The notes beneath the pieces were generated by a model. That model was not told where the DNA came from, made no database searches, and saw nothing but the letters and a program-made list of their open reading frames with translations. Of a DNA stretch of 64,000 nt, positions 26,201-49,200 are shown piece by piece. Made by a program: the position numbers and the translations under genes. Every line of letters begins with the position of its first letter. Positions within the stretch are counted from its first letter, which is position 1. Location: NCBI GenBank assembly GCA_021904315.1, contig CM038918.1, positions 8,757,349 to 8,821,348 of the forward strand, read 5' to 3'. The DNA comes from Sphagnum magellanicum (lineage: Eukaryota; Streptophyta; Sphagnopsida; Sphagnales; Sphagnaceae).

Positions 26201-28410
26201 ACATTCCTACCCCCAGCTTGATCCTGGCTATCTCACAACTTCCACCTTGCAAGAATTCCAGGCAAAGAGACTAAGAAGATACTGCGGTGACAAAAATGTC
26301 AAACGATCGCTACCCCCAGTAAGTTCCCAAAAGTCTGTTACTGTACCTGAAAAGAATCGAGAGTGCCTGCACATATAACTTCACCACTCTGGTCTGCAGC
26401 CAATGATACAAACTGGACTGGAGTAGGAGTTGTGAAAGTCCTGAAGTTACGGTATCGCACCAAGTCATAAGCACGTACAGTTCCATCCAACGATGCACTT
26501 ACTACTACATGATTTGTTGGCAGAAAAAGAACTGCTGTAATTGCACTGGTATGCTCTGCAAAAGTCACATAACAAGAGCCTGAAGCCGCACTCCAAAGCT
26601 GTGCCATCCAGTAAAAAATAGTTCAAAACCACCAGCCTCTGGCAAAACAATTCAATTTCATTTCCTCTTTTGAGGACCTGGTATCCCTAAACTAATTACA
26701 CTTGGTGATATGCAACGGCATGGAACTGTAGCAAAATCTTAGATTCTTGACAGAACCCTAAACCCTACACAACAAGGACAGATGTTTGTGCTAAATTTTC
26801 GAGTTAAGAAACATAACCTTTTCTCTGCAGCAATTTACTCATGCATCAACAATTGTTGGAAGTTTCGAAAGTGAATCAATTCCATTGCAAACCCTAAACC
26901 CTAGATCCTGTTGTAAAATTGCCAAGCTAGTGCTCTCATTGTGTGAGAATAATGCTGAAATCTCAACATATCACTTCAGCACCAAGTGTTGCACTAGGAT
27001 AACACCAATTGTGCCATTAGCTCCAAAGCACTAACCTCACTACTTCCCTGTTTGTGAGGCAAATCTCAGGCCCTCATTCAACCAAGTACGGCACAATAGA
27101 TGATTGGAAAGGCAAAAGACCTAATTTTTGCTAATAAGGACATTTCATAAGCCAGCACACAGACAATATTTATGGAGATTCTAGACCTTAAGCTTGTTGT
27201 CATCTGCACCGCTGGCAAGGTACTGAGAATCTGGAGAGAATGCCACACAATTGACATCGAAAAAGTGGCCCTGCTGCTTCAAGATTTGTGTCTCAGTTCG
27301 CCACTCCCAAACAAGAAGCTGCCCTAAGTTTGCACACCCAAATGCAAGCAGATTGCCAGTGCTGTTGAAAACAGATGTTGTGATCCTTTCAGTTGAAATG
27401 GAGAGCATGTGGATGCATGTGAAATCTGGCAGCTGATACAAACCAAAAACGCCGGATGAGAATCCTGCCACCAATAAACCCAGGCCCATGTGGTAATCAC
27501 AAGATGCCAATTTAGCACTTTGCATGAAGAAATTCTTCTTTGATTGCCTCCAGTGCCCAGTTATAAGGTTTGTTTCTGTTTTCTGCCGCCTCCCTGCTCC
27601 CATATCCTCCTCCTGCTGCATTTGCCGCCCGTCCTTGTGCTGTTTCTGACCGTCCAAATCCATGTCATCCTTCTCAGTCTGCATTCTCCGCTTCCTTCCA
27701 GCTCTTGCATGATCCTTATTCTCATCTGCTTGCAGCAAATCCGCATTCGGAAAATACCTCCAATCGAAGAGAGCACCATCTCTTGAAAGGGTATACAACC
27801 CCACGTCATGAGCTGACACAAGAGGTTTAGCAAAAAACACACCTACCAGCACATCTCGATGCCCAGAAAGCGTCACTGCATGCTGGTCAGGTGCTCTATA
27901 GACAGAAAACAGCTTGGTGGACAAGTCTTTCGAGCCAGCGACAATCCATCTACTGTCAGAGCTCCAACCAAGGCATGTGATGGAATCATGACAACCAGCA
28001 AGAGTACTAATCAACTGAAAAGGAGCAAACTCTTTCCGAAATCCAGGAGTCCGCCAAATCTGCAAGAGTTTTCCTACACCCGCAGCGAATAAGGTACCAT
28101 CAGGGCTGAACTTCAAAGCTGTGACAGGTCCCTTAAACGAGAAATGGTGAAGCACCACATGAGTATGAAGGTTGACGAGCAAGGACCGTCCGGTTTCGTC
28201 TATGGACAAAAGCAGAGAGCCACTGGGAGATACGGCTATCCTGCTAATGTTCCTCCCATTCTCGAATGGCAGAGTTATGGACTCCGACTTCTGCAGGTCT
28301 GTTACAGAGATCCTATTCCCCACCAGCGACAGCAACACTGCATCTTTCTTGAATTCCACATTGCCACCCCTGTAGGGAGCTCCCAACAGATTACTGAATT
28401 TGAAATTCAT
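23243..28410 (-). CDS. PWP2: PWP2 (UTP1), periodic tryptophan WD40 protein of the SSU processome, 7 exons
   Basis: PWP2 is a subunit of the U3 snoRNP (UTP-B) complex that processes pre-18S rRNA in the nucleolus. Exons (minus strand): 28410-27187, 26598-26347, 26040-25948, 25849-25478, 24761-24417, 24041-23814, 23443-23243. All joins are phase 0 with GT/AG ends, giving about 904 residues, close to the usual length. Exon 1 starts MNFKFSNLLGAPYRGGN and carries the first WD repeats plus a charged Lys/Asp/Gln-rich insert (about residues 230-275). Exons 2-4 carry further repeats, for example VSASLDGTVRAYDLVRYRNF, LSGHEGPVHGLSFSPVH and SSSWDKTVRLWDVFEGKGN. Exons 5-7 carry the family's C-terminal region: RSLDGVLDFLNSKNM, GPLDLIDDDDSDEE, FAAATTEGLLLYSMDD, HLEFLLQWCE and CSSNQYMLQFLCS. 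No break was seen and the gene looks functional. Intron 1 (about 590 bases) contains extra AAACCCTA motifs. Confidence 0.95.
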
Positions 28411-28448
28411 GTCTTCCTTCTCCTCATGTGCACGAATTCCAAGCTCCT

Positions 28449-28557
28449 GTCTCCTCCTCCTCCTCCTCCTCCTCCTCCTCCTCCTCCTTCTCTTATTCGT
28501 TTCCGATTCTCAAACCATTTCTCTGTTGCCACCATCAAAACTCGCGCGCGCGCGCGC
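28449..28557. repeat. CTC microsatellite and (CG)n tract in the PWP2 leader
   Basis: A (CTC)n run (about 28455-28488) and an alternating CG run (about 28543-28557) lie 40-150 bases upstream of the PWP2 start codon, probably in its 5' leader. Read on the PWP2 strand they are GGA-rich. They create spurious glycine- or proline-rich open frames on both strands. Confidence 0.7.
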
Positions 28558-29947: not shown

Positions 29948-32900
29948 GTTCACGAATGTCAATGCCATGGGGTCATTCATTTGATTATTAATAAATTTGT
30001 GTCTAGTTTTTTGTTTAATTCAAATTCATTATTAATTAACTTCTAATTAAGTTTTAGTTCACCTCCACTTAACTATTTTTAAGTTTTAATTCACTTTTAG
30101 TTAAGTCCTAATTCATTTTTAATTAAATCCTAGTTCATTTCTAATTAATTCATAATTCACTTTTAATTCACTTCTAGTTAACTCTTAATCTATTATTTTT
30201 TTAAAAATAATTTACTTTTAATTGAAGCTAAGTTTATTTTTAGTTGAATTTTAGTTCACTCTCAATCATGTTTTAGTTCACCCATAGTTCGCACATGGGC
30301 ACACATGGGCCACATGTAAATTGGAAGTTTTTTGAGAAACTTCCTTGAGTTAGGCACCCAAGGGATATAAATAAAGGTAGAATTCCCCAATACATTTAAC
30401 ATGTTCAACACCAATTTTGGTACGTTTCTTATCACAACCTTGTTTTTTTTTTTTTTTATAATCAAATCCTATTGATTTCTTGTTTAACATTTGTCATGTT
30501 CTTATTTTTGGTTTTCTTATTTCACAGTCTAGATTTGGGATTAGGCCTACCTTTATTTTCATCTTAGTTTAGGAAATTTCGTAAATTTGGTTAAATTTGG
30601 TTAGTTTTATGCCCGTGACAGTTTGAACAAACTCCCATTAGGTTTATTTTTATTCTCTTATTTTTGTTATCCTTTTGTTTTGAAATCATGTCTACATCCA
30701 TCAAAGAAGTTTTCGCTATCGTTAGGATTCACGAATAGGAAAATCAAGCATTACGTGAATATCTTGTTCATTTATAAACCAACCAAACTTCGACTTAGTT
30801 GGGATGTGTTTCCACAACACAACCCCAACCGAAAGAGCCACAAATCAACCTACCTAACAAGTTTGATGGCACATGTTCAAAGTTTTGAGGTTTTGTCAAC
30901 TAAATGCATATGATCATGTTTGATTTCATCCTCATCGGTATCCAACTGGCCCAGCCCAAATTAGACTCATTGGCACTTTGTTATCAAACACAACCCTTCT
31001 TGGTTCACACATTTGTTGGAACATTAATCACCCTTACTCAATAACTTTGAAGTATTTTTTAAAGAGTTCAGTGCCACTTTTGGTGATTCGGACAAAGAAC
31101 GCACATCTAGCATCAAGATACGATCTATTTGTCACATATCACATTCAATTTCGATATATGCATCGAAGGTTAAATAGTTGGCTTGTGATATTTCATGGGG
31201 TGAAATAATGTTCATAAGTTAGTTCCAATTTGCGTTACAAGGTGATGTGAAGAACTTGCTACTCACTTTACTAAACATGTCAACATTAAATCAGGCGATT
31301 GCACAAGTTATTCGATGTGACAATAGGCTTTTTGAACATCAACAAAATTAAAAAGGCATCATGAACCACCACTGACAACACAAAGGAGTTTTCCACCTAC
31401 AATGCCAGCTCAATCTTCAACAACCTCGCCAAAAGATGACCCCATGCAAATTGATACAATAAGATTCAAGCCCTTCACAGAACATGAAAAACAACGTCGA
31501 CATACAAACAATGTTTGTTTGCATTGTGGAGAACCAAGTCATATTGTTCATGAATGCCCAAAAAACAATGGTCCACATGTAGCAGACGCCATCTCTATTA
31601 CTAATCCACAATTAAAATAGTTGAAAAATGAACATGTCGAATTTTAGTAAAGATCGTGAAGCTAGACCTTAATGCATATGAAGAGTCTTCATTTTTAAAC
31701 ATCACAACACATGGCTTCAAATTGTGAAACCCTTATTAGAAACATGCAAAATTTGAAATAAAAAAAATGACCTAGATGGTATAAAAAGGCCTAGGTGCCC
31801 CAAGACTTTGTTTGTTGGGGCAAAAGCCTTCATTAAGGTTGCTAAGAGAAGAGATGCATTTTTTATTTATGTTTTTCCTTCACCAAATGTTAAACCACGT
31901 TCCCATGAGATTTTTTCCCAATATTAAAAATTCAAATATGTGTTTGAAAAGAAAAATGTGGACATCTTGCCCAACCATTGCATACAACTACACCATTAAC
32001 CTTGAGGAAGGGGCGCAACCTCCATTCACACCCATCTACAATATGTTTCAAAACAAACTTATAGCTCTTCATGAATACATTAACGAAAATTTCAAAAAAG
32101 GGTTCATTCGACATTCCAAGTCTTTAGTTGGTGCCCCAATCTTGTTTATTAAGAAAAAAGATGGTTCCTTCTGAATGTGTGTTAATTACCATGGGCTGAA
32201 TCAACTCACCATCAAGAATTAATACCCTTTACCCTTGGTCTCAAAGTTGTTGGACCAACTAAATCATGCTAAGGTGTACACCAAGATTAATCTATGTGGA
32301 GCATACAACTTGGTGTGCATTCGAAAAGGTGATGAATGGAAGACAGTGTTTAGTACATGTTCTGTCCATTTCGAATATGTTGTGATGCCATTTGGCCTCT
32401 ACCAATGTGATTGTTATTTTTCAACATCTAATGAACAATTTCTTTTATGAATACTTAGATAATTTCGTGATTTGTTACATCAATGACATCTTCATTTTCT
32501 CAAAAAACACGGAAGGGTATGAACGCCATGTACATTTGATTTTGGAGAAGTTTTGGGAGGTTAGGCTTTACACCAAATTGGAAAGTGTGTGGATTCCATC
32601 AATCTAAAATGGAATTTTTGGGTTATGTCATCTATGGACATGGCATTCACAAGGATAAGGTTCAAACAATTATTGATTGGGTTACTCCAACTTTTGTTCA
32701 AGATGTCTAATGTTTTCTTAGATTTGTTAACTTTTATCAACACTTCATTCCCCATTATTTTTCAATAATGGCCCTTTTATTCAGTTGACTAGAAAAGATC
32801 AACCTTTTTTTTGGGGAGTTGAAGTTGATAATGTTTTTCAATTTTTGAAGCTTCTTTCACATTCGCCCCACTTTTGATTCATGCAAACCCTTCCAAACTT

Positions 32901-35403
32901 TTTTTCTTGGAAATAGATGCTTCCAACTTTGTATGAGGCATCATACTTTCACAACTTGGAGAAGGCAATCTTATCACCTTCCATTTTCATAAGTTTTCTC
33001 TTGCATGGATTAATTATGAGATTCATGATAAAGAAATTCTAACCATCGTGGATGCCTTTGAAGAGTGGCATCATTTGTTTGAAGGACCTCAACATGAAAT
33101 CAATGTGTATTCAGACCATAAGGACTTGTAATATTTCACGACAACTTGTGTTTTGAAATGAAGCCAAGTTTAGTGGGCATTATCTTTATTTCAATTTCGA
33201 TTTGTCATCACATATCACCCTAGGCACCGGCAAGGGAAATTTGATGTGTTGTCCTATTGTTCATGCTTCACGCCTAAGGAGGAAGATATAACCTACAAGC
33301 AACAATGTGATGTTATTTTCAAGCCCAAACATCTTTGATTGCAGGTGTTATCAGTAATTCTTGATGACACAACCTTTTTTTATCAAATTCATGAAGATTT
33401 GAAGAAGGACCCTCTTATTATCAGCATTCAAGGCCAAATAAGGTGTCATCATCAAGTCTAGGATTTTTTCGGTGATCATGCCAAGTTCAAGTTTCAAAAT
33501 GGTCTTTTTTATTGTGACGGTCTTTTGTATGTTCCTAATGGCCCTGCACAACTTAAAATTCTCCAAACTAAGCATGATGTTTTGGTTGTAAACCATTTTG
33601 GATTCAACAAGACCATGAAGTTAGTGTCTCGGTATTATTGGTGGCCATAGTTTTGGAAGTATGTGAAGGAGTTTGTTGGATTTTTTTATGTTTGTGTTCA
33701 ATTAAAAAATATTCGTCATCGCTTTCATGGTCTCCTTCAACCATTACTAATCCATGTATCCCCATGATATTCAATTTCCATGGACTTTGTCACAAGCTTT
33801 CCATTTTTTAGTTCTTATGATTCCATCTTGGTGGTGGTGGACCGTTTGATGAAAATGGTTCCTTTCATTCTACATACCAAAATAATAATTGGCGAAAGAA
33901 TAACCAAGTTATTATTTGATTATGTTTTTCAGTATCATTATCTTCTTTAAAATATCATTTTTGATCATGGGCCTTAATTTGCATCCAAGTTTTGGAAGCA
34001 ACTCTTTGAGCTTTTAGGTGTGAAGGTGAACTTGTCATTAGTTTTCCACCCCCAAATGAATGGGCAAACAAAATGGGTCAATCAAATTTTGGAGCAGTAT
34101 TTATGGTGCACAATTAATTATCATCAAGATAATTGGTCAAAACTTTTGGCCATGGTAGAATTTCCTTACAACAACACAATGCATTCATTAACCTAGCAAA
34201 CACCTTTATTTGCAAAACATGGTTTGCACCCCAAGTTTGATATTCAAGGTGTGCACAAAGTCATGAATCCGGTAGCTAAGGATAGAGCTATGTGGTTAGT
34301 GAATGTTCGTTCAAGCTCAATTTGTATCTAACCTTGAAAAACACAAAAACGATATAAAAACAATGTTGATGAACATTAAAAGGAATAACTTAGTTTCAAG
34401 GTTAGGGACCAAGTTTGATTTCAATGATAAAATATCAAAACAATAAGACCATTAGAAAAGTTTGATCATTAGAGGTTAAATCCATTATTCATTATGAAAC
34501 AAATCAATGTTGTGGCTTTCCAACTCAAGCTTCCAGGTTCTATGAGAATCCATAAGGTGTTTCATGTTTCTTTGTTGGAGCCTTACCATGCGTCTACCAT
34601 TCCATGAATAATCCATGATCCCCTTCCACCTATTGAAATTGATGTTGAACAAGAATATGAAATGGAGGACATTTTGGATTCAAAGATTTATAATCATCAA
34701 CTTTAATATCTTGTTCATTGGCATGGGTATGATGTGAGTGAGCACACTTGGGAACCAATCAAAAACCTATTTAATGCCATGGAGAAGTTTCATGAATTTT
34801 ATTAACAATATCCAAGCAAGCCCAAATCTGCTCTTCATGGAACTCATCATTGGAAGGGGAGGTGATGTCATAAATGTCAATGCCATGGGGTTCATTTATT
34901 TGAATGTTCATCCATCATTTGTAAAAAACTTGTATCTAACTTTTAGTTTAGTTATAGTTCCCTTTTAGTTAATTATAGTTAAGTTTTAGTTCATCTCCAC
35001 TTGATTATTAGTTCATTTCCATGTGACTCTTAGTTAAGTCCTAATTCACTTTTCATTAATTCTTAGTTCACTTTTAATTAGTTAAGTTTTAATTCATTTT
35101 TAGTTAACTCATAGTTCACTTTTAGTTAGCCTTTAGTTCATTTTTAGTTAATTCTTAATCCATTCTTAATTAATTGTTAATTCACTTTTAATTAAGTATA
35201 AGTTCACTCTTAATTGAATTTTAGTTTATTTATGGTTCACATGTAAATTGGAAACTTCTTAAGATTTTTTTTGAATTAAATGCCCAAGAGGTATAAATAG
35301 AGGTAAAATTCCCCATTACCTTTAATATGTTCAACACTAGTTTTAGGTATGTTTCTTGTCATAACCTTATTTTGTTTTTATTTATTTTTGCAATAAATTA
35401 TGT
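29948..35403 (+). mobile_element. Fossil Ty3/gypsy chromovirus with LTRs, interrupted in its 3' LTR region
   Basis: Parts in order: 5' LTR about 29948-30620; gag about 30900-31620 with a zinc knuckle (CX2CX4HX4C, about 31520-31560); reverse transcriptase about 31970-32760; RNase H about 32900-33270; integrase about 33550-34250; a C-terminal chromodomain about 34650-34805 (LVHWHGYDVSEHTWEP); a polypurine tract at 34852-34862; 3' LTR 34863-35403. The two LTRs share AATGTCAATGCCATGGGG near their starts, a block of TTAGTTCACTTT-like internal repeats, and a GGTATAAATA-like region, but differ at many positions, so the element is old. It is broken, with at least about ten breaks. The 3' LTR stops at the target-site duplication of the CACTA element, and its remainder is not recognised beyond 45331. 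The chromodomain identifies a chromovirus. Confidence 0.9.
35401..35403 (+). repeat. Left target-site duplication (TGT) of the CACTA element
   Basis: The three bases TGT just before the left terminal inverted repeat are repeated directly after the right one at 45329-45331. CACTA elements produce 3-bp duplications. Confidence 0.85.
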
Positions 35404-35680
35404 CACTACTAGAAATTCTGTCATATGCAACCACCATGTTTGCAACTGGGATGCAACTACCTATCACATGCAACTATCCTTGGTTTTTTATGCAACTACA
35501 ATGGATTTTTGCCCCCTTTTTGGGTGTGTATGCAACTATGGTGCAACTATGATCACCTTCATCCCAACCTTTGGATGATTTCTGTGATATATCATCGTAT
35601 ATATTTGATATGCATATATTCATAGTTGTATGTGCAACCAAAATATGCAAACTATGGTCTTTTGGTAAGCTAGGTACACA
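35404..35680. repeat. Left terminal inverted repeat and subterminal TGCAAC motifs
   Basis: After the 13-bp terminal repeat, (A)TGCAAC motifs occur about eight times in some 250 bases, mostly in the forward orientation, with one inverted GTTGTATG-like copy. These fit the subterminal arrays where CACTA TNPA-like proteins bind. Confidence 0.8.
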
Positions 35681-36227
35681 TTTTTTGTAGGCATGTCTAG
35701 GATTAGGGTTGCCTACAAATGACAATCCCATTGATAAGGTTTAGGACATAGGTGAAAAATAACCTAATCTATTTTGCCACCTACCTAAGATAATGTAGTT
35801 ATCCCCAACTTTTAGTAGCTTGCTCCACAAACATTTAGAAGACAATTGAGAATGGAAGATATCAATTTTATTTACAATAGTTTATCACTTGATGAAGCAA
35901 AACAATGTATATGTGTATTCAACAATAAGGTCCAATTAATCCCCTCAAGATTACAATATGTGGGTTTGAGGGTTTAAATAATCTATTTTATTCCAACAAT
36001 TATCCAATACAAGTGAGGGTCTCATGGCACATATACACCTTATAGTCCATGTAATGCATTGTTAGCTCTGGGTGTGCCACCTACACACCATTGTGATCCA
36101 ATGCTAGTAACTCTACTCGTCTACAGTTTATCCACTCACTTGTTACTCACTTCTTGTTGTAGTAGGAAACTAATAAAATGCTAACCACACAGGTATGAGA
36201 AATGAGTTTCATCAGACTCTTAGAAGT
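35681..36227. other. Transposon interior, no gene recognised
   Basis: Lies between the left subterminal repeats and the last exon of the captured coiled-coil gene. No coding signal is seen. Confidence 0.4.
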
Positions 36228-38405
36228 TTAACATCTTAAGGGATGGTTGAACTTTCTGGACCTTTGCAACACCTGAACTGCTTGAACCAAGCTCCTCACA
36301 GAGTGCTCATTGTTGTCTATGGTTTCATCCCTGGGAATTTTCTTAAAATGCTTCACGTGAAGAGAGGGCCAATTGGTGGACCCAACAACAGTCTCCAACC
36401 CCTTCATTCGATCTGATAACACGTCTAGTGCCTGCACAGAATAGAGGTAAACTCATCCTCAACAAGTTGCAGTGATTATGAGAGGCAATATTTCAAAGGT
36501 TGCTAAAAAGATAGTGAAAAACAGAGCAGTTGCATGTATATATGCCACAAGTATGTAAGTTTACTTGGTAATGATATTTCCAAATTCAGATATCTTTTTT
36601 TCAATCCCATCCTATCTAATTTCTTAGACAAGAAAAAGCTGACCTGATTTAGCTGAGTGACCTCAACTTTCCAGTCTCTCTTTTGTTGTTCAATTTCTTC
36701 CTGGATAACACCCAGGCACCATTTTTTCTCGGTATTCAGGTGATTTTGTGATTATTGTATTTGTTCCACTGTTTGGGAGAGAGTGTTGAGAGTGTCCTCC
36801 ATCTGCATGTAGTCTGTATTTAACCATTTGCAATGACACTGGACACAAAGTGCTACTAGAGTTCCGAGACTATACTCAATATCTAACCTGGGGGGAAGCG
36901 TCAGCAAGCACAGAAGCATCTTTCACCTCAGATATGTTGCCACTTTACCTTGGAGATGTTGCAAGTGATGTCTTCATGCATTTGGTGATTGGTAGTCATC
37001 AAATTAGGCATGAGAGATTAATGTTGCTTAAGTGTGGAAAACAACCATCTCTTTTCTTCCTGAAGTTCCTGGGTGATATCTTTGGCTTTGGTAACCTCAA
37101 CATTCATTGTATGTCACCATCCAGCAATCGCAAACTCAAGTTCATTGCCGAAGTGGTTTTGGACTTCGTGGGTGTGCTGTATTGCCAACTTCCGCTAATG
37201 CTCCAAGCTATCCTTCTCTCTCTCCAAACCCTCCTGCTTTATCATCAGTGTGCACACATATTTCCATGATGAGGATGATTTTATTCACAAGTTTCACAGT
37301 AACAGTTCAGATGAATAAGTTGCAAATTACACATGTACCTGCAGCTGCATGGTTAGCTTCTGAGTTTTTCCCATTTCTGAGTTGAAAGAACCCAGAAGCT
37401 CAGCCAAAACTTGTTGGGCCCTAAGTGCAGATGCAGAAGCTTCTGAAATAGCAAGTGATGCCACATGTTTTTCTTTGTGCACAACTGACATTGCATTCAG
37501 GAGTTTTGAGGTCTCTCGTCAAGACACTATTGCACCTCCTGGTTTCTGTTTTGGGCTTCTGTAACAATAATCAGTGAATGTTCTTTCACCTTTGCAAGCT
37601 CCTTGTTGACTTTGATGGACTCGGTAGCAACAGCAACTACCATATCTCTATCAGTTGCCAGATTCTCCTGGATCATGCATGGACCAGGACATGTGGTTCA
37701 AACATCCAAAATTTTGTAACCTGAGAAATGTTGTCTCTCTCTTATTTGAGGAGCATCATCATGCAAAACCAGTAGCAGACCTGAGGTTCAGCACTCCTAT
37801 ATTCTTAGAGGATTTTATGCAAATTCCAACCTGAAGCTGCAGGTTGTTCCATCGTGTATTCGCAATCTCCATGTTGAATGATCCCAACATTTCAGTAAGG
37901 AAGTTTGTTGCTTTTGTCGCTGATATGGCGGCATCTGCAGCTGCCTTAACTGCCACTTGCTTATGTTTTTCTACAACTGACAACGCTCTTGGCAAACTTT
38001 CTGGACCTTCTTTCTGTTAAACATCAAATGAAAATTTTCTTGAACCAATTCGACCTGAGAAAATGCTATTGTGATGATGGTGATGCCTCTTCTCACAAGG
38101 GCGCTCACTCACTGGATCATGAATTGTGGCAAAACTCCAATGAGTCGAGGAGAGAAGGCATTCACGTAACTTACCCCTGCTGCTGCCACACTAAGTTCAA
38201 GCTTCAAGTCTTTGATCTCTTGCTTCACGGAAACAGTCATTGCCAGTGTTTTATCGTGCGATTTTTGCAAGCGCTTCTTCACCTGTGCTTTGACTGCACT
38301 TATCATTTCACATTTGATATCGATGCAGACATCCTTTAGTTGACGACGTATGGATGCACTCTCCCTCTCAAGTGCTTGTTGGACGATGCCGCATTCCGTC
38401 TCCAT
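36228..38405 (-). pseudogene. Captured multi-exon coiled-coil gene, decayed (unknown family)
   Basis: The apparent first exon (38405 to about 38177) starts METECGIVQQALERESASIR, ends in VAAAG, and has a GTAAGT donor. Later exon-like blocks with splice borders are at about 38013-37832 (ends NNLQLQ), 37680-37560 (ENLATDRDMVVAVATESIK), 37500-37340 (ends LTMQLQ), 37170-37040, 36800-36650 and 36430-36228. The two blocks ending in LQLQ and MQLQ are paralogous: both read SVV-x-K-x-K, then Ala-rich sequence, then LGSFN. The predicted protein is helical, Lys/Glu/Gln-rich and coiled-coil throughout. At least two later blocks contain in-frame stops, and one exon (37560-37680) lacks a clean continuation, so I call it a pseudogene. 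A telo-box sits 16 bases upstream of the ATG, so the promoter seems to have been captured too. I do not recognise the parent gene. Confidence 0.6.
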
Positions 38406-38420
38406 TATTCATACGTCCAG

Positions 38421-38435
38421 GTTTAGGGTTTAGGG
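38421..38435 (-). promoter_or_regulatory. Telo-box upstream of the captured coiled-coil gene
   Basis: A double CCCTAAA-type unit on the gene strand, 16 bases upstream of the ATG at 38405. It suggests that the host promoter or leader came along when the transposon acquired the gene. Confidence 0.45.
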
Positions 38436-38562
38436 TCTCAAGAAGCACCTGATCTGCAACCGATTTTGGCTATTGCTGTTACAGTGTGATGTTTTGCAGA
38501 ATGCGTATAGACTGTGTTCCTAAGACTCAAAGATCGACAATCTCATTTTGAGTTTTTTTTCA

Positions 38563-38870
38563 GGTGGAACTTGAAAGTGTAAGAAAGCTTGCAGCAAGGA
38601 TGCAAGAGGACAGTAAAGAATTAGAGAAGGAAAGAGGCAGCAGGCGAGTGGAAGGTGTCCAGGAGAGACTTCTCATTATGGAGAAAGTGGAGAGTTTGTC
38701 ACACCTGTACCTAGGAGGCTTAGAGGAGGTTCATGCTAATGTCTTCAATGTGAAGCTTGGTTGTTGTGACCGCGTTGATAAATTGGAAGATCAATGGAAA
38801 GAGTTTTAGCAGCAAGAGCAGGAGATTACTGTTGCCTCCGAATATGAACTTGGATCCGTGCCTCAGCAAG
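38563..38870 (+). pseudogene. Captured coiled-coil exon on the plus strand
   Basis: The exon-like block follows a TTTTTTTTCAG acceptor and ends at a GTAAGT donor. It reads VELESVRKLAARMQEDSKEL, then QERLLIMEKVESLSHLYLGG, a cysteine pair (LGCCDRVDKLEDQWKEF), an in-frame TAG, and QQEQEITVASEYELGSVPQQ. It is coiled-coil-like and opposite in strand to the neighbouring captured gene. It may be a fragment of a different gene or of a divergent partner. Parent unknown. Confidence 0.5.
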
Positions 38871-38959
38871 TAAGTTGCATCACTCTCCCCTTCAGCTTCA
38901 AGACCCTGTGAAGGACATGTCTCGTTGTAGGACGATGCCAAAGAAGGCAGCGATATGGA

Positions 38960-39315
38960 TTCCAGAACAGTAATGATCGCGATCTGAATCTCTGCCAGTT
39001 TGTTTAAGATGCTCAGGTTTTTCGTATCTATGCGGAGAACCTACACGATGTAGATTTCCATAGCAATAATGCTACCGATCTGAATTTCTACGAGTTTGTT
39101 TGAGATGCTCAGGTTTTTCGTGACGACTTGGGGAACTTGTACGACATAGATTTTGATAGCAATGATGATCTCGATTTGAATCTCTGCGATTTTGTTTGAA
39201 AGGCTCAGGGGCGTCTTGACGATTTGGAGAGCCTGTGCAACGCTATAAATTTCCATAGTAGTAATGATATCGATCTGAATTTCTGCGAGGTTGTTTGAGA
39301 TGTACACACCAGGGA
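38960..39315. repeat. Tandem repeat, about 3.7 units of 96-99 bp
   Basis: GATCTG/GATTTG anchors fall at 38981, 39077, 39173 and 39272. All four units keep a similar block ending TTTGTTTGAGATGCTCAG. The minus strand stays open across the units (consensus near LSISNKLAEIQIEIIIAMEI), but on the plus strand, the direction of the adjacent exon, every unit has a stop at the same place. The 96-base period is divisible by three, so it may derive from a coding repeat of 32 residues. Confidence 0.75.
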
Positions 39316-40613
39316 GCACAAGGAAGAAGAAGAAGGTATAGAGAGCTTTCTACCTTCACTGCCTTTTCAACTTTCTTGAGGTCCTTCATTTCAAGCTTCA
39401 AATCAGTGCCTTCGTATAGATGTTATGTGATGGCTATGCCCTGATAAGAAGCAAAAACGTCCAGTAATTGATTGAGTCTGGCCAGTTTTGTTTTCACCTT
39501 TAGTTTTGGTTGTTTTAATTGGCTAATGTTGTGTGCTACCTGACTACAAATGTTCAGACTCCAATGCATGGCGGAAGGTTAGGAGTGCTACTGCAGCAAG
39601 TCCATCAGGACCATCTTTCCTTTTGCATTCTTTCTCAGTCTAGATGGGTTCCACTCAGTATCGTGAACTTCATTTGCTGAAAGAAAATCCTAGGTTATGA
39701 TATTTCCTTAATTCATGAATATTGTCACTTTTATTGGTATGGAGTGTCTGTGATGTTGCTCTGTAGTTTCCTCGCAATGCTTAGGTGTGGACTAGAAACT
39801 TTAATTTGGGTGAAGGACTGGTTTGGACCACAGTTGTACTAAGAGAATGTGCTAGATGGTCATTTTCTTTTTTTGCAATCAAATTTGATTTGCTGAAATG
39901 ATATTTGTTTGGGAAACATTGTATGCTTGTTGGTTGTGCAGATACTCCCTTGTTGGCCGCTCCTTCTATTCTCCAAACCTTGGTACCAGACAGTCACTGG
40001 GAGATGGACTGGAAAGCTGGCGCGGTTTCTACCAAAGTATACGCCCAACTTAGATGGGCTTGTCCTTAAACATTGGTAAGAGGAGAAGACCCTTGACCTT
40101 CAAGTGGTTGTTGTACTTTGACTTGTGCAACATGTTGCAAGCAGACTTTGGCAACTTATGGCAGCATTTAGATGTCAGGTCAGATTTCTGCTTTCAGCAC
40201 ATACTGTCCAAGAAATTTGGCAATTTTGTACCCTGTGATGGCAAGTACTTGGGATTCACCAATCTGGATGCTGTGGATTCTTCAAATATGGAGTGACTTC
40301 TAGATCTCATGGCTTGTGGGTTTGTCATAGACATGTCATCAACTGCCTTCATTGAGCCAAAAACTGTGATGGAGTTCATTCAGGATCTTCTGAACAAGGA
40401 TATATCAAGGGGATTAATGGAGAGGGCTTTCCACGCTTTGGGGTAGAGAGCGCAGCAAAATATATATTTTTTCAAATATTTAGAAAAATGCCGCAAGTCC
40501 AACCAAGCTAAGGTAAGCCTCACATTGCGAGCCGGGAGTGTCTATAAAAGAAAATGGCAAAAATCAAATAGAATAAAAAGATTGTGTCTCCGCTCTGCGC
40601 TTTGTTTCCTTAA

Positions 40614-40692
40614 GCTTACTTGGTGAAAATGGTAAACACAACAGACTTAAAATCTGTTCCTATGGGTTATCGGTTCCAGTCCAATAATGAGC
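40614..40692 (+). tRNA. trnL-UAA: tRNA-Leu(UAA)-like, mitochondrial type
   Basis: Acceptor arms 40614-40620 and 40686-40692 pair except for one position. The anticodon stem (40641-40645/40653-40657) is perfect and its loop holds TAA at 40648-40650. The variable region is long, as in class II tRNAs. The T stem has one mismatch, so this copy is slightly decayed. Inside the NUMT; probably not expressed. Confidence 0.8.
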
Positions 40693-40694
40693 AT

Positions 40695-40773
40695 ACTTGC
40701 TTGGTGAAAATGGTAGACACGACAGTCTCAAAATCTGTTCCTATGGGTTGTCGGTTCGAATCCGATAGCGAGT
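40695..40773 (+). tRNA. trnL-CAA: tRNA-Leu(CAA)-like, mitochondrial type
   Basis: The seven acceptor pairs (40695-40701/40767-40773) all form, one as a wobble pair. The T arm (40750-40766) pairs fully. The anticodon loop holds CAA at 40729-40731, with one mismatch at the inner end of the stem. It is 79 bases long and lies two bases after the Leu(UAA) gene, which it closely resembles; the two are a tandem pair. Confidence 0.8.
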
Positions 40774-40803
40774 ATCCTAATGTCTAAATTGGAAAATAAA
40801 AGG

Positions 40804-40875
40804 GCGAGTATAACTTAATAGGTGAAAGTGTCAGATTGTGAATTTGAAAACACGGGTTCAAATCCCGTTATTCGC
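40804..40875 (+). tRNA. trnH-GUG: tRNA-His(GUG)-like, mitochondrial type
   Basis: All seven acceptor pairs (40804-40810/40869-40875), the anticodon stem (40831-40835/40843-40847, one G-T) and the T stem (40852-40856/40864-40868) form. The anticodon GTG is at 40838-40840 in loop TTGTGAA. Sequence details differ from plastid trnH, pointing to a native mitochondrial gene. Confidence 0.85.
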
Positions 40876-41206
40876 AAGAAGAACAAATCATCTATTAGCT
40901 TAAATCTTGACAATCTTCGGGAGCACTACTTTTCGCAACAAAAAAGATTTTGTAAGAATTTTCCAATTTTTGCTGTGATTTTCCAAATGGGAAAAAAAGC
41001 TTTGCTATAAAGTGCCCCAGCTTTGTCGATCAAGCTTGTGGCCTTAATTAGCAAAGTGGGCCCCTTAGTTATTGGGTGGTTATCCTTTGGTGACTAAGTC
41101 ACCCTATTAGATCCTTCCGTTTCTTGTCCTATAACAAATCAAACATAAAAGGATAAGGCCACATTGCGCCCATGCTCGGACATCATCAGCCATTTTTGCC
41201 GATAGA

Positions 41207-41541
41207 TTACTCTGCTTGTATTGGCTGATATAAACAAAAACATAAAGAATTATACGGATAAAAGATAAGCTCAAAAAGTTGTTGAAATACTGATATTGTT
41301 TCTAAATCAACAGCTCTTTTTATATCCATATGATTGACTAAAGTAAATTGGAGTTGTCCGTATAATAAAACTAGATTTTGCTTGTAGAAGGTTGAAGGTA
41401 ACAATTGTGACCATGTATTGTCTGGTGTTTTTCTAATTAAGTACAAGATACAAGTGGGACCTGCGCTAAAAGCCGATTGAATAAAGGTTTGATTAGAACC
41501 TAGCTTATATACCTGTGCTCTTGCAAAGTGGTCATCAGTAA
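41207..41541 (-). pseudogene. rpl10: Mitochondrial ribosomal protein L10 (rpl10) fragment
   Basis: The minus-strand frame reads GFTDDHFARAQVYKLGSNQT, then FIQSAFSAGPTCILYLIRK, TPDNTWSQLLPSTFYKQN, and LLYGQLQFTLVNHMDIKRAV, ending QPIQAE and a stop. The GPT-x-I-x-Y segment, followed by a G-x-L block and an I-x-x-A-x-L-x-T-x-x-x-x-Q helix, matches the order of the L10 fold. Plant mitochondrial genomes are known to carry rpl10. A stop lies just upstream and the N-terminal part is missing, so this is a fragment in the NUMT. The rpl10 call is from motif memory, not alignment. Confidence 0.6.
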
Positions 41542-44500
41542 ATCCCTAAAAGAAAATCTTGATTTTGGATTTGGCAGCAGCCTCTGTTGAGACATTTCTG
41601 AAGTTCACTTCATACCTTATTGGGTGTCTGTATCATGATTGAGGAATTTCTTTGCCCATGGAATCAATTAAACTCAATTTGTGCACTAAAGGGGGACTGG
41701 ACTTGCAGATCAAAAAAACCTTGCATGGTGTGAAGGTTGAGGTCACACTTCGTGGAAGTATGCGACGGAAATACCGAGTTTCAGGGTTCACGAAACTAGC
41801 CACAAATGAGCTTGTGTATGCAGCATCCTAATTTGTACCTTTAATGTGGTATGCTCATCTTTTCAGTTTGCAATTGGATGGAGTCTAGAAAAGGTCAAAG
41901 TAGTCATGGGTGTTTTAGATAGAGGCCACCTAATTCACAATGAGTTCTTCCTGTAGATTCCTTGTTGATGAGAGGGGGACTATGAAGTCTTTCACTGAAT
42001 ACTTTAAAAAGACATATGGGTATGTCATTCGCCACCCATTCTTGCCATGCCTTCAAGTTGGCAATCAACAAAGACCCAACTATCTTCCTATGGAGGTGTG
42101 CAAAATTGTGGAAGGTCAACAGTACTCAAAGCGCTTGAATGAAAAGCAGATTACAACTCTCCTGAAAGTCACCTGCCAGCGACCTTATGAATGTGAGAAG
42201 GATATTTTGCAGGTTCTTGTTTGCTTTGAAGTCTGCCTATGGCTGTTCTTGTTAATCAGGAGTTAGTTGATGTCTCTTGTTTTTTCAATTTGTATGGACT
42301 TTGTGCGGATGGCTCTCTTGAACGCTTTCAAATGTGCAATATGCCTATGCATCTTTGTGTAATTCCATCATTTGAATTGGCATGTGGGTCTTTTGTGGGT
42401 GGGTTGCAGACTATGAATCATAATGCATACCATCAGGATCCATATGCACAAGAATTTGGTATTCGCATCAGTGCCCACCTTGCACAAGTGGAGGCTCGTA
42501 TTCTACCAGCTCCTCGAGTTTGTCTTTTCCCACCACATGCTTGTGTATCTGACAAGTGCCTGCTAGATCTAACATGTTGCAATTGATTCTTACTGTATTT
42601 TGGGTGACTTTGTAGCTCAAGTATCATGATACTGGGAGAGAATAAGAATGCCTTCCTCAAGTAAGACAGTGGAATATGATGAACAAGGTATGCAAAATTG
42701 TTGTGTTCAGGTGATGACAACTTCTTTTGTGCTTGCTGGATTGAAGCTGCTGTGATGAAGATGTCTTGCAGCTATTGTGCAATTAGAAAATCACGATTTG
42801 CAGGAGAAGTTGCACCAGCTCCTGTTGTCAGTCACTCATTTATGTTGCTTATTTCAGATTATGATTCTGGATGTGTGCATGTTGTCTGCTTTGGCCTGTC
42901 TCATGCCAATGTTAAAATCGTGGTGTGACCATCTTTCAGGATGCTAACTAGCTCTTGGGACCTAATGGTGTCAATGTCACTAATTTGCCTCTATTGTTGG
43001 TCCAGAGATTAGGTGATCTGAGATGTAGTGCTGGCTTATCAATGGGTTTTTATTGGTAATTGATATCTTCTCTGATTTGTAGAAAATGGTGAATGGTGGA
43101 GTTGTCAACCACTAGGCCTGTCTCAATTTTTCAAGAAGTGTTCAAGAGAATGTTGTTGCTGCATTTTGCTCTGAGTTGGCTCAAATGTGCCATACCTCTG
43201 GAATGGTAATGCGTTCCACTGTCTCAATTGTCAATTTGTGCTTGGATTGCATTCCTTCTTGCAATGTTCTAAAGCTAGTATGTTGTATGGAGCAGGATTT
43301 TCATCTTGAGCCAATAGTTCCAATTCAGAGTGTGCGCCCAGAACATTCAGAACGTGCTCTTACACATCTGTGTGAGGAAGTTAAGAAAAGGACTAAGGAC
43401 AAAGACTTAGATCTCCTTGTGGTGATTCTGCCTGATAGCAATGGATCACTTTATGGTGTGTAAGCTGTTCAATGAGCTTTTTGTCAGAATTTGAGAACTT
43501 CTAGATCTGCTTGTTGATGGTCCTAAGTATGTGGTAGCAGTCAATTAGCTGCTTTATTTATACTTGCATTTAGGGATGTCTGTGCTTTACTCAGATGTAT
43601 GGGGGACTGTTTCTGCTTTCTTATAGTGTAGTTGTGGATGTAGGTGACTTGAAGAAGCAGTGTGAGACTGTCCTCGGGGTAGTGTCACAATGATGTTTAA
43701 CCAAACATGTTTACAAGATGAGCAAACAATATTTGGCCAATGTGGCTCTAAAGATCAATGTCAAGGTACATTGTTTGTGATATGACCTTGTCATTGTTTA
43801 AGTCCTGTCAAAGGTTGAAAGTCTTGGAGAGGAGAATTGCACAGTTGCAAGGTTGATTTGGGTGGCTACTCATGTGTTACTGGCTTGTTGGGAGGACAGG
43901 TTGGGGGCCGGAACACTGTCTTGGTTGATGCACTTTCACGAAAAATCCCATTAGTAAGTGAAATTCCCACCATCATATTTGGTGTTGATGTCACACATCC
44001 ACATCTTGGAGAGGATTCAAGCCTTTCCATTGCAGCAGTGAGTTTATCTTAATCAGAGTTTTTGCCACCTGATGATTTTTAGCTTCTTGTGTTCCCACAG
44101 AAATCACTACATTCCGTTCTTGAATGTAGCTCTTGTAAGTTAAGGGTTGGAAGTTGTAAAGCATGGTTGTTGCTTTCTTGGAATTCTGGATGGAAATAGG
44201 TGGTAGCTTCACATGACTGGCCTGAAGTCACCAAGTATGTTGGTCTAGTTTGTGCTCAAATACACTGACAGGAATTGATTCAAGACCTCTACAAAACTTG
44301 GGTGGATCCCTAGAGAGGCCATTGTACAGGTGGCATGATAAAGTAATACTCCTTTCTTTGGACCTTTTTCTCCCTCAACTCAATAATGGTGATGTGGAGA
44401 TTGGTTCATTATCTTCATGGGGGAAAATGTCTTGCTCCACCTTTCAACTGAGGTTTGAGGAAAAAGGGATAGCACTCAAGCCAGGCCATTGCAGACATTT

Positions 44501-44737
44501 TCTTCTTTGGCATCAATTGGTAGTCGAGGCTTGAAAAACACATTTCTGTTGCACAATGCTCTTTTGCTATTGCTGAACCTTGGAAAATGTTCCCACAATT
44601 TTGTAACTTTCCTTTTGGAATATACAGTTCTTTGCCTTGTGCATGTGTTTCTCAGTGATTGTAGAGTTTTGTTGATCGATCTGTTGTTCACAGGCATTCT
44701 TGGCAATTCTAGATAGCACATTGAACAAAGCAGATGA

Positions 44738-44773
44738 AAACCCTAAACTCTAACCCTAACCCTAACCCTAACA
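44738..44773. repeat. Interstitial telomere-like repeat inside the CACTA element
   Basis: About four CCCTAA units, with a further short run at about 44882-44901. This is not a chromosome end because the transposon continues to 45328. It may be a variant of the plant telomere motif or a leftover telo-box-type leader. Confidence 0.7.
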
Positions 44774-44814
44774 GTGGGACCATGTGACACATGGCGATTC
44801 AAACTCTCAAAATA

Positions 44815-45328
44815 TTAGTTGCATTTGCAACTACATTGTGCGTTCACTAGGTTGCCACATGGCATGATCCTGATAATTAAACCCTATAACCCTAACCCTA
44901 ATTTGTGCCACGTGTACAATGACATAGCATGGTTGATCAAGCCTTAAATCCAACACGTGTCCACACCCCAATGGCTACGACTTGGACGGTCTAGATTAAT
45001 CAAAGTAATTTTTAAAACTAAATATTTAATTACAAAATAAAAGTACACGTGTTCGCATACAATTGGGTTAGCGAATTAACATGTAATGCAGTGTGAACGC
45101 AACCCCTATAGTTGCATGCAGTCACACGACCAACTGCTAGTATAGAGCATGGGTGGATGAAACCGTATAACCTAACCATATGTACTTGTATTATACGACT
45201 GTCGCATGCAACTGCAATTTTCATGCAACTTGTTTTAGGCAACTGGGCGAATTTCTAGTTGCATGTGTCGCATGCAACTGAAAACCAGTTGCATAAGACA
45301 GTTGCAAAATGCCAAATTTCTAGTAGTG
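44815..45328. repeat. Right subterminal TGCAACT motifs and terminal inverted repeat
   Basis: TGCAACT or its complement AGTTGCA occurs about ten times, densest at 45190-45310, just inside the terminal repeat ATTTCTAGTAGTG (45316-45328). Mirrors the left end. Confidence 0.8.
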
Positions 45329-45331
45329 TGT
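45329..45331 (+). repeat. Right target-site duplication (TGT) of the CACTA element
   Basis: Directly follows the right terminal inverted repeat and equals the TGT at 35401-35403. Confidence 0.85.
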
Positions 45332-45354
45332 TGAATTTGAGTTTTAAGGTTAAT

Positions 45355-46260
45355 GGAATAGCCAGTAATAGCCATTAATAAAATAACAACCGATAGCCAT
45401 TAATAGAATAACATCCAATAGCCATTAATATAATAACAACCAATAACCATTTATAAAATAATAACCAATAATTATTAATAAAAATACCAACTAATAGCCA
45501 TTAATAGAATAACAACCAATAACCATTTATATAATAACAACTAATAACCGTTAATATAATAACAACCAATAGCCATTAATAGAATAACCACTAATAGCCA
45601 TTAATAAAATAGCCATCAATAGTCACCAATAAAATAACTACTAATAACCATTAATAAAATAACCATCAATAACCATTAATAGAATAACCATTGATAATCA
45701 CTAATAGCCACCAATAAAATAGGTACCAATAGCCATTAATAACCACTAATAGCCCCAATAAAAAAAAATTAATAGCCATTTAGTATAATTATCTAGGATT
45801 GCCAAAAATAATCTAGGGTGAAATAATTTATAATAGAGAAAAATAATTTAAGGTAAAATAGCCTATAATAATCTAGAATTGTCAATAATAACATAAGGTG
45901 AAATAAAATTTAATAGCCAAAAATAACTAATAATAGCATCACATAATTGAAAATAACCTAAGATGAAATAACTTACAATAGCCAAAAATAACTTATAATA
46001 GTGCAAGTAGCCTGAAGTGAAATAATTTACAATAGCCAAAAATAACATAAAATAACCAAAAAAACTTACAATAGTCAAAAATAGCTTAAGGTGAAATAAA
46101 TTAAAATAGCAAAAAACAACTTAGAATAATCAAAAGTAGCATAAGGTGAAATAGGCAATAATAACCAAAAGTAATTAATAATAACCATAAATAACCGTAA
46201 ATAATGTATTGTGAAATAATTTAAGTTAATGAAAAATAACCATATAATAACTAAAAGTAG
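45355..46260. repeat. 25-bp AT-rich minisatellite
   Basis: About 15-16 units of the type GCCATTAATARAATAACMA plus six bases, at an exact 25-base spacing in the first 250 bases. They grade into a diverged block (45760-46260) of AATAGCCAAAAATAAC-like sequence. The array begins some 25 bases after the CACTA element. Confidence 0.85.
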
Positions 46261-49200
46261 TTCAACATAAGTAGTATTATTATATTAACAAGAATCTTAT
46301 CCATTTACTAAATAATTTTTTTTTCAAAAGAATGGTCATTGAAATGTTATTGAATAATGATATTCAACTTTTTTTTTCTTCAAATGATTTTACACTTTCA
46401 AAAGGAAATAAATGTAATTATGTACATTATTGAATTTTTAAAAAAAATAAACTCGAATCATTTCATTTAAACAAAATTTCAATAAAATATGAATTTTCAA
46501 AGTTTAAATTTTTATAATGTTTAAAATGAAATATTTGATAAATAGAATGTAATGTAACATATTATCACAACAAGTGGGGTGGTTTGATGGTAAGGGTGTT
46601 TACTTCCATTATTAAGGTTAAGGGATCAAACTTCATGAGTGATGTTGTGTGTGGTCAACAATGGTAAATTGATCAAATATTCTCTTATTTAATTCCATAG
46701 AATAGGTGCGTAGGTTGATTACGTGGCCTACCTACATAAGGTTAGGTTTAAAACCTAGCCTAGGTAGTGACACGTGTCAATAAATCATAGGTGGAAATCA
46801 TGAAATTATCAATAATATTATATATTAAATAATTTAATTTAAACTAATTTCCATGCTGACTAGTTAATTAGTTACTAAGTGAATGGTTTGGTAAATTTGT
46901 ATTTCATTTGAAAGTAACCTTGTTTCATTAGGTAATAGTGAAACAATTCATTATCCGTAGCAACTGGTCCCTATTCACTAGGGGGTTAACCAATTTCACC
47001 AAGTAAAAATGTTTAAATTCACTCAAAATCTAATGAAACCTAGAGTGAACTAGGACGCATTTTGTTATAGTGAAATAAGTCACTCTGAAAAATTATTTAA
47101 TGTACATGTTAAAAAAATAAAAATTGAAATCCACCCAAAAATGATTATGATATGGACTTATGAGAATGTGGCTCATTTTAGGCCATTCAAAAGTCCATAA
47201 TTCTTTTTTGGTTAACTTTTTTTAACAATTTTTTTACATATATGTTTTTTTTGTTTTAACATATCATATATTGAACCCTTATAATATATTTCAAATAAAA
47301 TTCATACACAAAAATGCATGTATATAAAGGCACAAATAATAAACCAATCCATATTTTTCAATTTTAAAAGTCCATTACTATATATTTGATGTATATATGT
47401 TGCAATTTTTTTTATAAATGTTTTATTCTTTAATTTGATAATTTAAATCTAGCCACAAATTTGGAAAATTATTTTTTAATGCCATGTTAATAGCATGTAA
47501 ATGCACAACATTCTACAAAAAATTGGATTGTGATGCAGAAAATGAACCACCTTACCTTGCAACCACCCATAAACATAATGGTTACAATTAATGTCTAAAC
47601 ATAATGGTTAAAATTTGGTTAATTTTTGGATAAACCTAATGGCCAAATTTAATGGCTACACTTAATGGTTAAACTTAGGTAAATAATATGTAGGTAGGTG
47701 GGTATTTAAGTAAATAGGTTGTATGAAAATGAAAAAATATAAATAGGTAAATAAATAGGTAAATAGGTAGGTAGGTGAAAAGGTATAAGTATATAGGTGG
47801 GTAGGTAGTTGGTAAGTAGTGGGTGGGTGGATGATGATAGGTAAATAATTAATTAGGTAAATAGCTGGGTGAACTCAATTAAAGTAGATACAAAGGGTAA
47901 CATGTTTGAATAAAGAATATTGACCATCTTAATTAAATGTTATATTCAACTAAAGACCATTGACCATTTTGACTAAGGTTGTATAACTTAACTAGATGTT
48001 ATATACTCAAATAAATTTCTATAATCAAGTTGATTTATTAAAAAATACATGTGTCATCCAAGCCTTTAGCCTTTAATCAAAATGTATACGTCCATCAGTG
48101 AATGTCTTAAAAAAACCATGATTTGTAGTAGTGCATCATCCACAAAATTAAAAGAAAACATCATTTGAATGCCACATTCAAAATTAAGAAACAAATGAAC
48201 ACATGCAATAATGTGATGTTTACAAACATATATGTAATCATTAATCATGCATGAAAATGTTGAAAAAATGAATCAAATCGATGAAAATAACAAAAAAACA
48301 TTTTCAGATCACTCATTGTGCACAAAATCATGTAAAAAACACAAGTAGTTAATGAACAACAATGAATAAACAAAAGATTATGTACACTATAAAATTGCAA
48401 AAACAAAAAGATGAATAGGTACCCAAAAAAATCAAAATACCTTTAATTGCAAATAAATTTTGATGATATTATCAATTAATTATGCATGGTAACCAATTTG
48501 AAGCCACCAATCACTGGATATAATCTTTTCGTTACCATGACTTCATGATTATATCTAGTAAACAATGGCCTTTCACATGTTACTAAGTCTATAAACTTGG
48601 GTAACATACACTAGGTTAATAATAACATAAGGTAACCAATTACTATCATAGGTTATGTAGGTATGTAAAGTAGGATAACAAGGTAATATAAGTAGGAAAA
48701 ATACCTAGCATAGATACCTAAGTAGGTTATGAAAGAATGTGCATAGTAATATGTGGTGACAAATCATATCATTTATTTAAATAGTGATTCAATGGTTAAA
48801 TATTTGTTTATTAAAACATGGAGGTGAGGGGTTCAACCTAATGTTGGGCAATTATTTGTTTTTTGGAAAATCTTTGGGGTTGATTCTTTTTTATTATTTT
48901 TTGGGAAGAACCTTCACATAAGGTTTCATATTTTTTTAAATTCCATAACCTCTTATTAAAGTTGTGTTTTTTAAAAAACCATATGGTTTTAACTTTTTGA
49001 CCAAAAGTCAACCTAAGTAGTGATCCAAATTTAAGGTTAAGGGTTAGGCTGTGAAAACAAAAAAATGGTCATTATGATTACAACCAAGTACATATGTTTT
49101 CAAAAAATGCATGTGTTTCAATTTGAAAATAATGAATCTATCAATGTGAAAAATTTACTTGTAACAATTACATGTTTATTTACTATTCACATATGCAACA

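Follow-up and report, generated by a model that had tools for sequence, protein, structure and literature searches.

A probable gene-capturing CACTA element in the peat moss Sphagnum with ARGONAUTE, coiled-coil and mitochondrial cargo

What kind of element encloses, between one pair of terminal repeats, fragments of an ARGONAUTE gene and of a coiled-coil gene family together with a piece of mitochondrial DNA? The question is raised by a 64-kb stretch of Sphagnum magellanicum DNA (hereafter the window, to which all coordinates refer), in which an earlier note had described positions 35404-45328 (9.9 kb) as a non-autonomous, gene-capturing CACTA transposon. That description is well supported: the ends are intact and flanked by a TGT target duplication, transposase is missing, and between the ends lie intron-bearing fragments of two nuclear genes or gene families, with mitochondrial DNA inside the ARGONAUTE fragment. 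The locus is very probably a non-autonomous, gene-capturing CACTA element of the Pack-CACTA type, residing in a peat moss.

The two ends are made up of the following features.

35401-35403: left copy of the TGT target-site duplication
35404-35417, plus strand: left terminal inverted repeat, 14 bp
35426-35640, plus strand: left subterminal array of TGCAAC(T), in a single orientation throughout
44810-45314: right subterminal array of TGCAACT, in both orientations
45315-45328, minus strand: right terminal inverted repeat, 14 bp
45329-45331: right copy of the TGT target-site duplication

The terminal inverted repeats open with CACTACTAG, and their full sequence, CACTACTAGAAATT, agrees at 14 of 14 positions between the two ends, one more than the perfect 13 bp originally noticed; the CACTA start is that of the CACTA superfamily. 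TGT stands on either side as a 3-bp target duplication, as had been claimed, and a 5-bp duplication is absent at these flanks. The window contains 163 exact 13-mer inverted pairs with a spacing of 0.5-20 kb, two of which have equal 3-bp flanks; the combination of a CACT start with equal 3-bp flanks is found only at the ends of the element. The subterminal arrays also proved real. TGCAACT occurs 26 times in the window, against a mean of 14.8 in shuffled sequence (2 of 100 shuffles reach 26), with six copies in the left 240 bp of the element, seven in the right 240 bp, eight in its interior and five outside it. The expectation per 240 bp is 0.022 at the rate outside the element and about 0.056 at the shuffle rate. 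Taken together the arrays show the direct and inverted orientations that mark CACTA elements, the left one running one way and the right one both ways. Allowing up to two mismatches, the window holds five end-like sites including both true ends, where 2.2 are expected and 8 of 100 shuffles give at least five. One of these, on the minus strand at 48121-48133, reads CACTACTACAAAT and differs from the element end by one mismatch; it is perhaps a lone CACTA end, perhaps a product of chance.

Between these ends no transposase domain was found, in agreement with the earlier reading, when all six frames of the entire element were compared with Pfam (E up to 0.1, with no CACTA transposase as a positive control); ArgoL1, PAZ, ArgoL2 and Piwi scored above the cut-off, and three chance rows fell below it. 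The element is therefore non-autonomous, and CACTA membership is still allowed. Host gene fragments enclosed by CACTA ends, with no transposase, are the mark of Pack-CACTA elements, and this is the arrangement found here. The Pack-CACTA or Pack-TYPE elements of Arabidopsis, rice and maize, as they appear in the available portions of the sources, share CACTA ends, the lack of transposase and host gene fragments that are sometimes drawn from several loci (PMC8903248, PMC13317346); the present element differs from those described there in its moss host and in having mitochondrial DNA and an ARGONAUTE segment as cargo. Its duplication is 3 bp long, whereas 5-nt duplications are given for rice and maize CACTA elements in the accessible text of one of these sources (PMC8903248). 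The excerpted text of a study of Chenopodium lists CACTA ends, subterminal repeats and a 3-bp duplication as CACTA features, and the elements it describes resemble the present one in terminal inverted repeats, subterminal repeats, 3-bp duplication and captured fragments; the fragments described in that excerpt adjoin a transposase-associated domain, which the present element lacks (PMC8978399). Sphagnum genomes consist of repeats to about 30%, and CACTA, at 6.8%, is the commonest classified type, according to the part of the report available (PMC9946827). The pattern of the element ends had 0 matches in bacterial and archaeal contigs and in viral contigs.

The ARGONAUTE cargo is laid out as follows.

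39942-44342, plus strand: ARGONAUTE (AGO1/AGO10-like) gene segment, eleven exons
39942-40075, 40331-40410 (cut short), 41709-41815, 41957-42212, 42410-42517 and 42616-42687, plus strand: ARGONAUTE exons
43083-43205, 43296-43455, 43644-43765, 43900-44037 and 44200-44342, plus strand: ARGONAUTE exons, continued
40051, 42643, 43113, 43691, 44266 and 44311, plus strand: the six in-frame stops of the ARGONAUTE segment

Spliced together, the eleven exons give a single frame of some 480 codons, extending from linker 1 into PIWI; it is interrupted by six stops and shows no frameshift. Nine of the ten introns in this model are GT..AG, and the tenth has no donor, which was lost to the mitochondrial piece. 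Pfam was weak on the short single open reading frames of several ARGONAUTE pieces, and the spliced model was used instead; its match to residues 286-772 of chain 7sva_A, 'Protein argonaute 10' (presumably the Arabidopsis protein), at E 1.2e-223 bears out the ARGONAUTE cargo that had been recognised earlier. When three ARGONAUTE proteins were searched with tblastn, none matched an N-terminal part upstream of 39937, and past 44343 the remaining PIWI appeared only as a weak extension from one of the three. Named AGO1 and AGO10 matches near the top are 63-74% identical to the segment and AGO5, MEL1 and AGO7 about 47-53%, which places it closer in sequence to AGO1/AGO10 than to AGO5, AGO7 or MEL1; no AGO4-named protein is among the best 120 of 767 ARGONAUTE matches. 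In a 24-row tree, which has no AGO4-clade row, the segment falls into neither the AGO5/AGO7/MEL1 branch (100/100) nor the AGO10 branch (100/100); Diphasiastrum is nearest to it by path, and it belongs to no supported group. The label AGO1/AGO10-like is thus a statement of similarity in sequence. The copy is too damaged to yield protein. As CACTA cargo, an ARGONAUTE fragment is in itself unsurprising because such elements capture many different genes.

The mitochondrial piece comprises the following features.

40411-41485: mitochondrial DNA within the ARGONAUTE segment; it begins between 40411 and 40613 and ends near 41485, no later than 41509
40614-40693, plus strand: tRNA-Leu (UAA), trnL-UAA
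40694-40777, plus strand: tRNA-Leu (CAA), trnL-CAA
40804-40876, plus strand: tRNA-His (GUG), trnH
41207-41485, minus strand: mitochondrial rpl10, the last 92 or so codons and the stop

Three tRNA genes and the C-terminal part of mitochondrial rpl10 confirm that mitochondrial DNA is present. It lies inside the ARGONAUTE segment, not beside it, in the region of exon 2 and the following intron, where about ten codons ending exon 2 and the splice donor, and probably some of the intron, were lost. The rpl10 piece is 84% identical in amino acids (aa) to P0126, the nearest long protein, and 92% to a 79-aa fragment, and its matches include liverwort and clubmoss mitochondrial proteins. The CpG ratio of the mitochondrial piece is 0.76, compared with 0.30 in the whole ARGONAUTE segment including that piece, and is consistent with descent from an organelle. 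NUMTs are mitochondrial sequences copied into the nuclear genome. With its mitochondrial genes bounded by nuclear sequence, the piece is one of these, and like them it is short, diverged and set into nuclear DNA at a point where sequence was lost; unlike ordinary NUMTs, it sits within a captured gene fragment inside a transposon. Among the relatives of 41207-41485 are five short proteins (P0141, P0143, P0144, P0152, P0159) in which a common start, MVTI, precedes the rpl10 C-terminus. This start is not found in full-length rpl10, and P0141 is present on eight contigs of up to 72.7 kb. These proteins may represent rpl10 fragments dispersed as a family, with a junction unlike that of the element.

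The third cargo lies to the left of the ARGONAUTE segment.

36057-37986, minus strand: genomic fragment from a coiled-coil gene family known in Sphagnum, carrying in-frame stops and one or more frame breaks
37986-37828, 37643-36946 and 36446-36057, minus strand: protein matches in this piece (tblastn)
38180-38405, minus strand: possible first exon of the same coiled-coil gene, ATG at 38405 (reading and splice-like end by eye; no protein match)
38561-38878, plus strand: coiled-coil exon with one in-frame stop, TAG at 38807 (tblastn)
38951-39302: 96-bp tandem repeat, 3.6 copies
39348-39416, minus strand: coiled-coil exon (tblastn, P0125)

The coiled-coil cargo has at least five protein matches among 7999 candidates scored; three are from Sphagnum (two from S. 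jensenii, one from S. troendelagicum) and are 84-92% identical over 11-14% of the query, and the other two are 41% and 29% identical. In tblastn, P0121 and P0124 match at 37986-37828 and 37643-36946, and P0122, P0123 and P0125 at 36446-36057. P0124 bridges the two sets, as its residues 49-172 match 37518-37021 and its residues 295-388 match P0123 before the 36446 exon; P0121 and P0124 are 41% alike. The exons at 39348-39416 (minus) and 38561-38878 (plus) are direct neighbours, in that order, in the S. jensenii protein P0125. Since the pieces are out of order and on both strands, we infer that they were rearranged or come from two members of the family. What the earlier note listed as coiled-coil genes are fragments from a single gene family, lying in both orientations. 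No Pfam family scored above the cut-off for this cargo, and ten cargo proteins searched with tblastn against the window outside the element gave no match at E 0.01.

The left flank of the element is the 3' long terminal repeat (LTR) of a decayed Ty3/gypsy-like element at 29955-35383 (LTR pair 29955-30456 and 34873-35383, 71% alike), and the CACTA start lies 20 bp beyond the end of the LTR homology. By eye, the gypsy element contains a chromodomain-like reading (34560-34800) and reverse-transcriptase-like readings; no Pfam family was found for its segment 31785-32174, and it is strongly depleted in CHG (observed/expected ratio 0.23). Adjoining the right end of the CACTA element are about 900 bp of AT-rich 25-bp tandem repeats (45349-46260). 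Short telomere-like runs of CCCTAA/CCCTAAA occur near the cargo borders at 44739-44772, 44876-44901 and, by eye, 38418-38433. Farther away on the minus strand lie a WD40 gene at 23700-28509 (WD40 matches for 27181-28509), which we take to resemble PWP2, and a C2H2 zinc-finger gene at 55084-56886.

The decay of the cargo was followed at 199 positions where at least 95% of the residues aligned from 37 ARGONAUTE proteins agree. At 182 of these 199 the segment is unchanged; the 17 changes comprise ten explained only by C>T/G>A, none only by T>C/A>G, five transversions, one multi-step and one ambiguous case (P 5e-4 for ten against zero transitions). In the coiled-coil cargo 25 of 177 positions differ, and 22 were kept after three rows past the exon end (36260, 36254, 36251) had been dropped: 13 C>T/G>A, two reverse transitions, five transversions and two multi-step differences. 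The 23 C>T/G>A changes of both cargoes fall at CG (6), CHG (8) and CHH (9), so that CG and CHG together account for 14 of 23 against 5.2 expected (P 9e-5), a statistic in which, as in the others on decay, related differences are not independent. A lean of C>T/G>A towards CG and CHG is the pattern that methylated cytosines in unselected DNA would leave.

How such an element came about can be outlined tentatively. It may have been assembled stepwise from nearby and stray DNA, either by capture or as repair filler; for capture, a route proposed in the available parts of two studies is the aberrant excision of neighbouring Pack-CACTA copies (PMC13317346, PMC8903248). For the mitochondrial piece, entry at a double-strand break, before or after capture, is the most likely route, given that exon codons and the splice donor were lost at its site. 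The element would have been mobilised by the transposase of an autonomous CACTA relative, and its cargo would have decayed as methylated, unselected DNA, after the movement or already before it. Several observations weigh against this account. Movement is attested only by the target duplication. The window offers no empty site: the LTR homology of the left flank ends at 35383, and sequence beyond the right end is not its continuation (177 of 200 shuffles reach an equal score). The CHG ratio of the element, at 0.99, is not lowered, compared with 0.23 in the neighbouring gypsy element; this speaks against long and heavy CHG methylation, and heavy methylation must have been shorter-lived here than in that older element. 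The direction of the changes counted above was inferred from proteins of other species or of other family members. Finally, a single cargo gene, the coiled-coil one, points to a Sphagnum host; the best ARGONAUTE match is to the clubmoss Diphasiastrum (74%), in a search that covered proteins of up to 840 aa.

Other histories could produce parts of the same structure. It is possible, if somewhat unlikely, that a non-autonomous CACTA element was hit by later insertions and repair after landing at this site, so that part of what it now carries, chiefly the mitochondrial DNA, did not move with it; this is compatible with a gene-capturing CACTA element. The mitochondrial DNA breaks up an exon-intron junction in the ARGONAUTE segment and has a higher CpG ratio, so it may be younger than the remainder; however, no terminal repeats or target duplications of a second element are evident around the ARGONAUTE or coiled-coil pieces among 24 inverted pairs and the best 20 of 35 direct families, and both are plain gene fragments, like captured cargo. 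The distance of 9.9 kb between the ends, the unrelated cargo and the further end-like site with one mismatch might suggest that two ends from different CACTA elements face each other by chance, but perfect 14-bp repeats, equal TGT flanks and a single subterminal motif at both ends make this extremely unlikely. Faulty assembly is known to place organellar sequence in nuclear contigs at times; even so, the joining of mitochondrial contigs to nuclear sequence by error is scarcely credible here, as the rpl10 piece is diverged both from its nearest long protein and from the 79-aa fragment, in a comparison that named no Sphagnum mitochondrial sequence.

A further proposal concerned function. The earlier note had suggested that the ARGONAUTE segment, if transcribed, might produce small RNAs directed at the host's transposon-silencing gene, and this is unsupported: the segment is AGO1/10-like, no hairpin was seen in the cargo and the frame is broken. 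RNA-directed DNA methylation of transposons depends mainly on the AGO4 clade. That small RNAs from the segment lower a host AGO1-type gene and so weaken silencing is very unlikely. A long stretch from linker 1 to PIWI has been kept and retains 182 of the 199 conserved residues, so that pairing with the parent gene could still be possible over much of its length. Yet the segment resembles AGO1/10 and not AGO4 (a judgement of similarity in which no AGO4 sequence was compared), its frame carries six stops, and the cargo contains no inverted duplication from which a hairpin could form: no long inverted repeat was found in it, and the longest pairs inside the element besides the ends are 24 nt. The only longer palindrome, an imperfect one, lies in the right subterminal array (45224-45306). 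It is likewise extremely doubtful that the element, with most of the PAZ-MID-PIWI part of an AGO1-type gene, serves as a natural decoy RNA or a supply of small RNAs by which host AGO1 is tuned; if it did, a transposon would be turning the silencing machinery on itself.

Gene-capturing CACTA elements are already known in plants. The soybean element of Zabala and Vodkin is reportedly a CACTA element with captured gene fragments. In mostly non-subscription literature, which gives no proof of absence, we found no report of such capture in a moss, of ARGONAUTE or mitochondrial cargo in a CACTA element, or of an ARGONAUTE fragment captured by any transposon. The Sphagnum element offers a closely mapped case of CACTA gene capture from the bryophytes, where such elements can be abundant, and shows organellar DNA within the captured gene of a transposon. 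Combined with RNA data, it would allow a clear test of feedback from captured silencing genes on the genes they came from.

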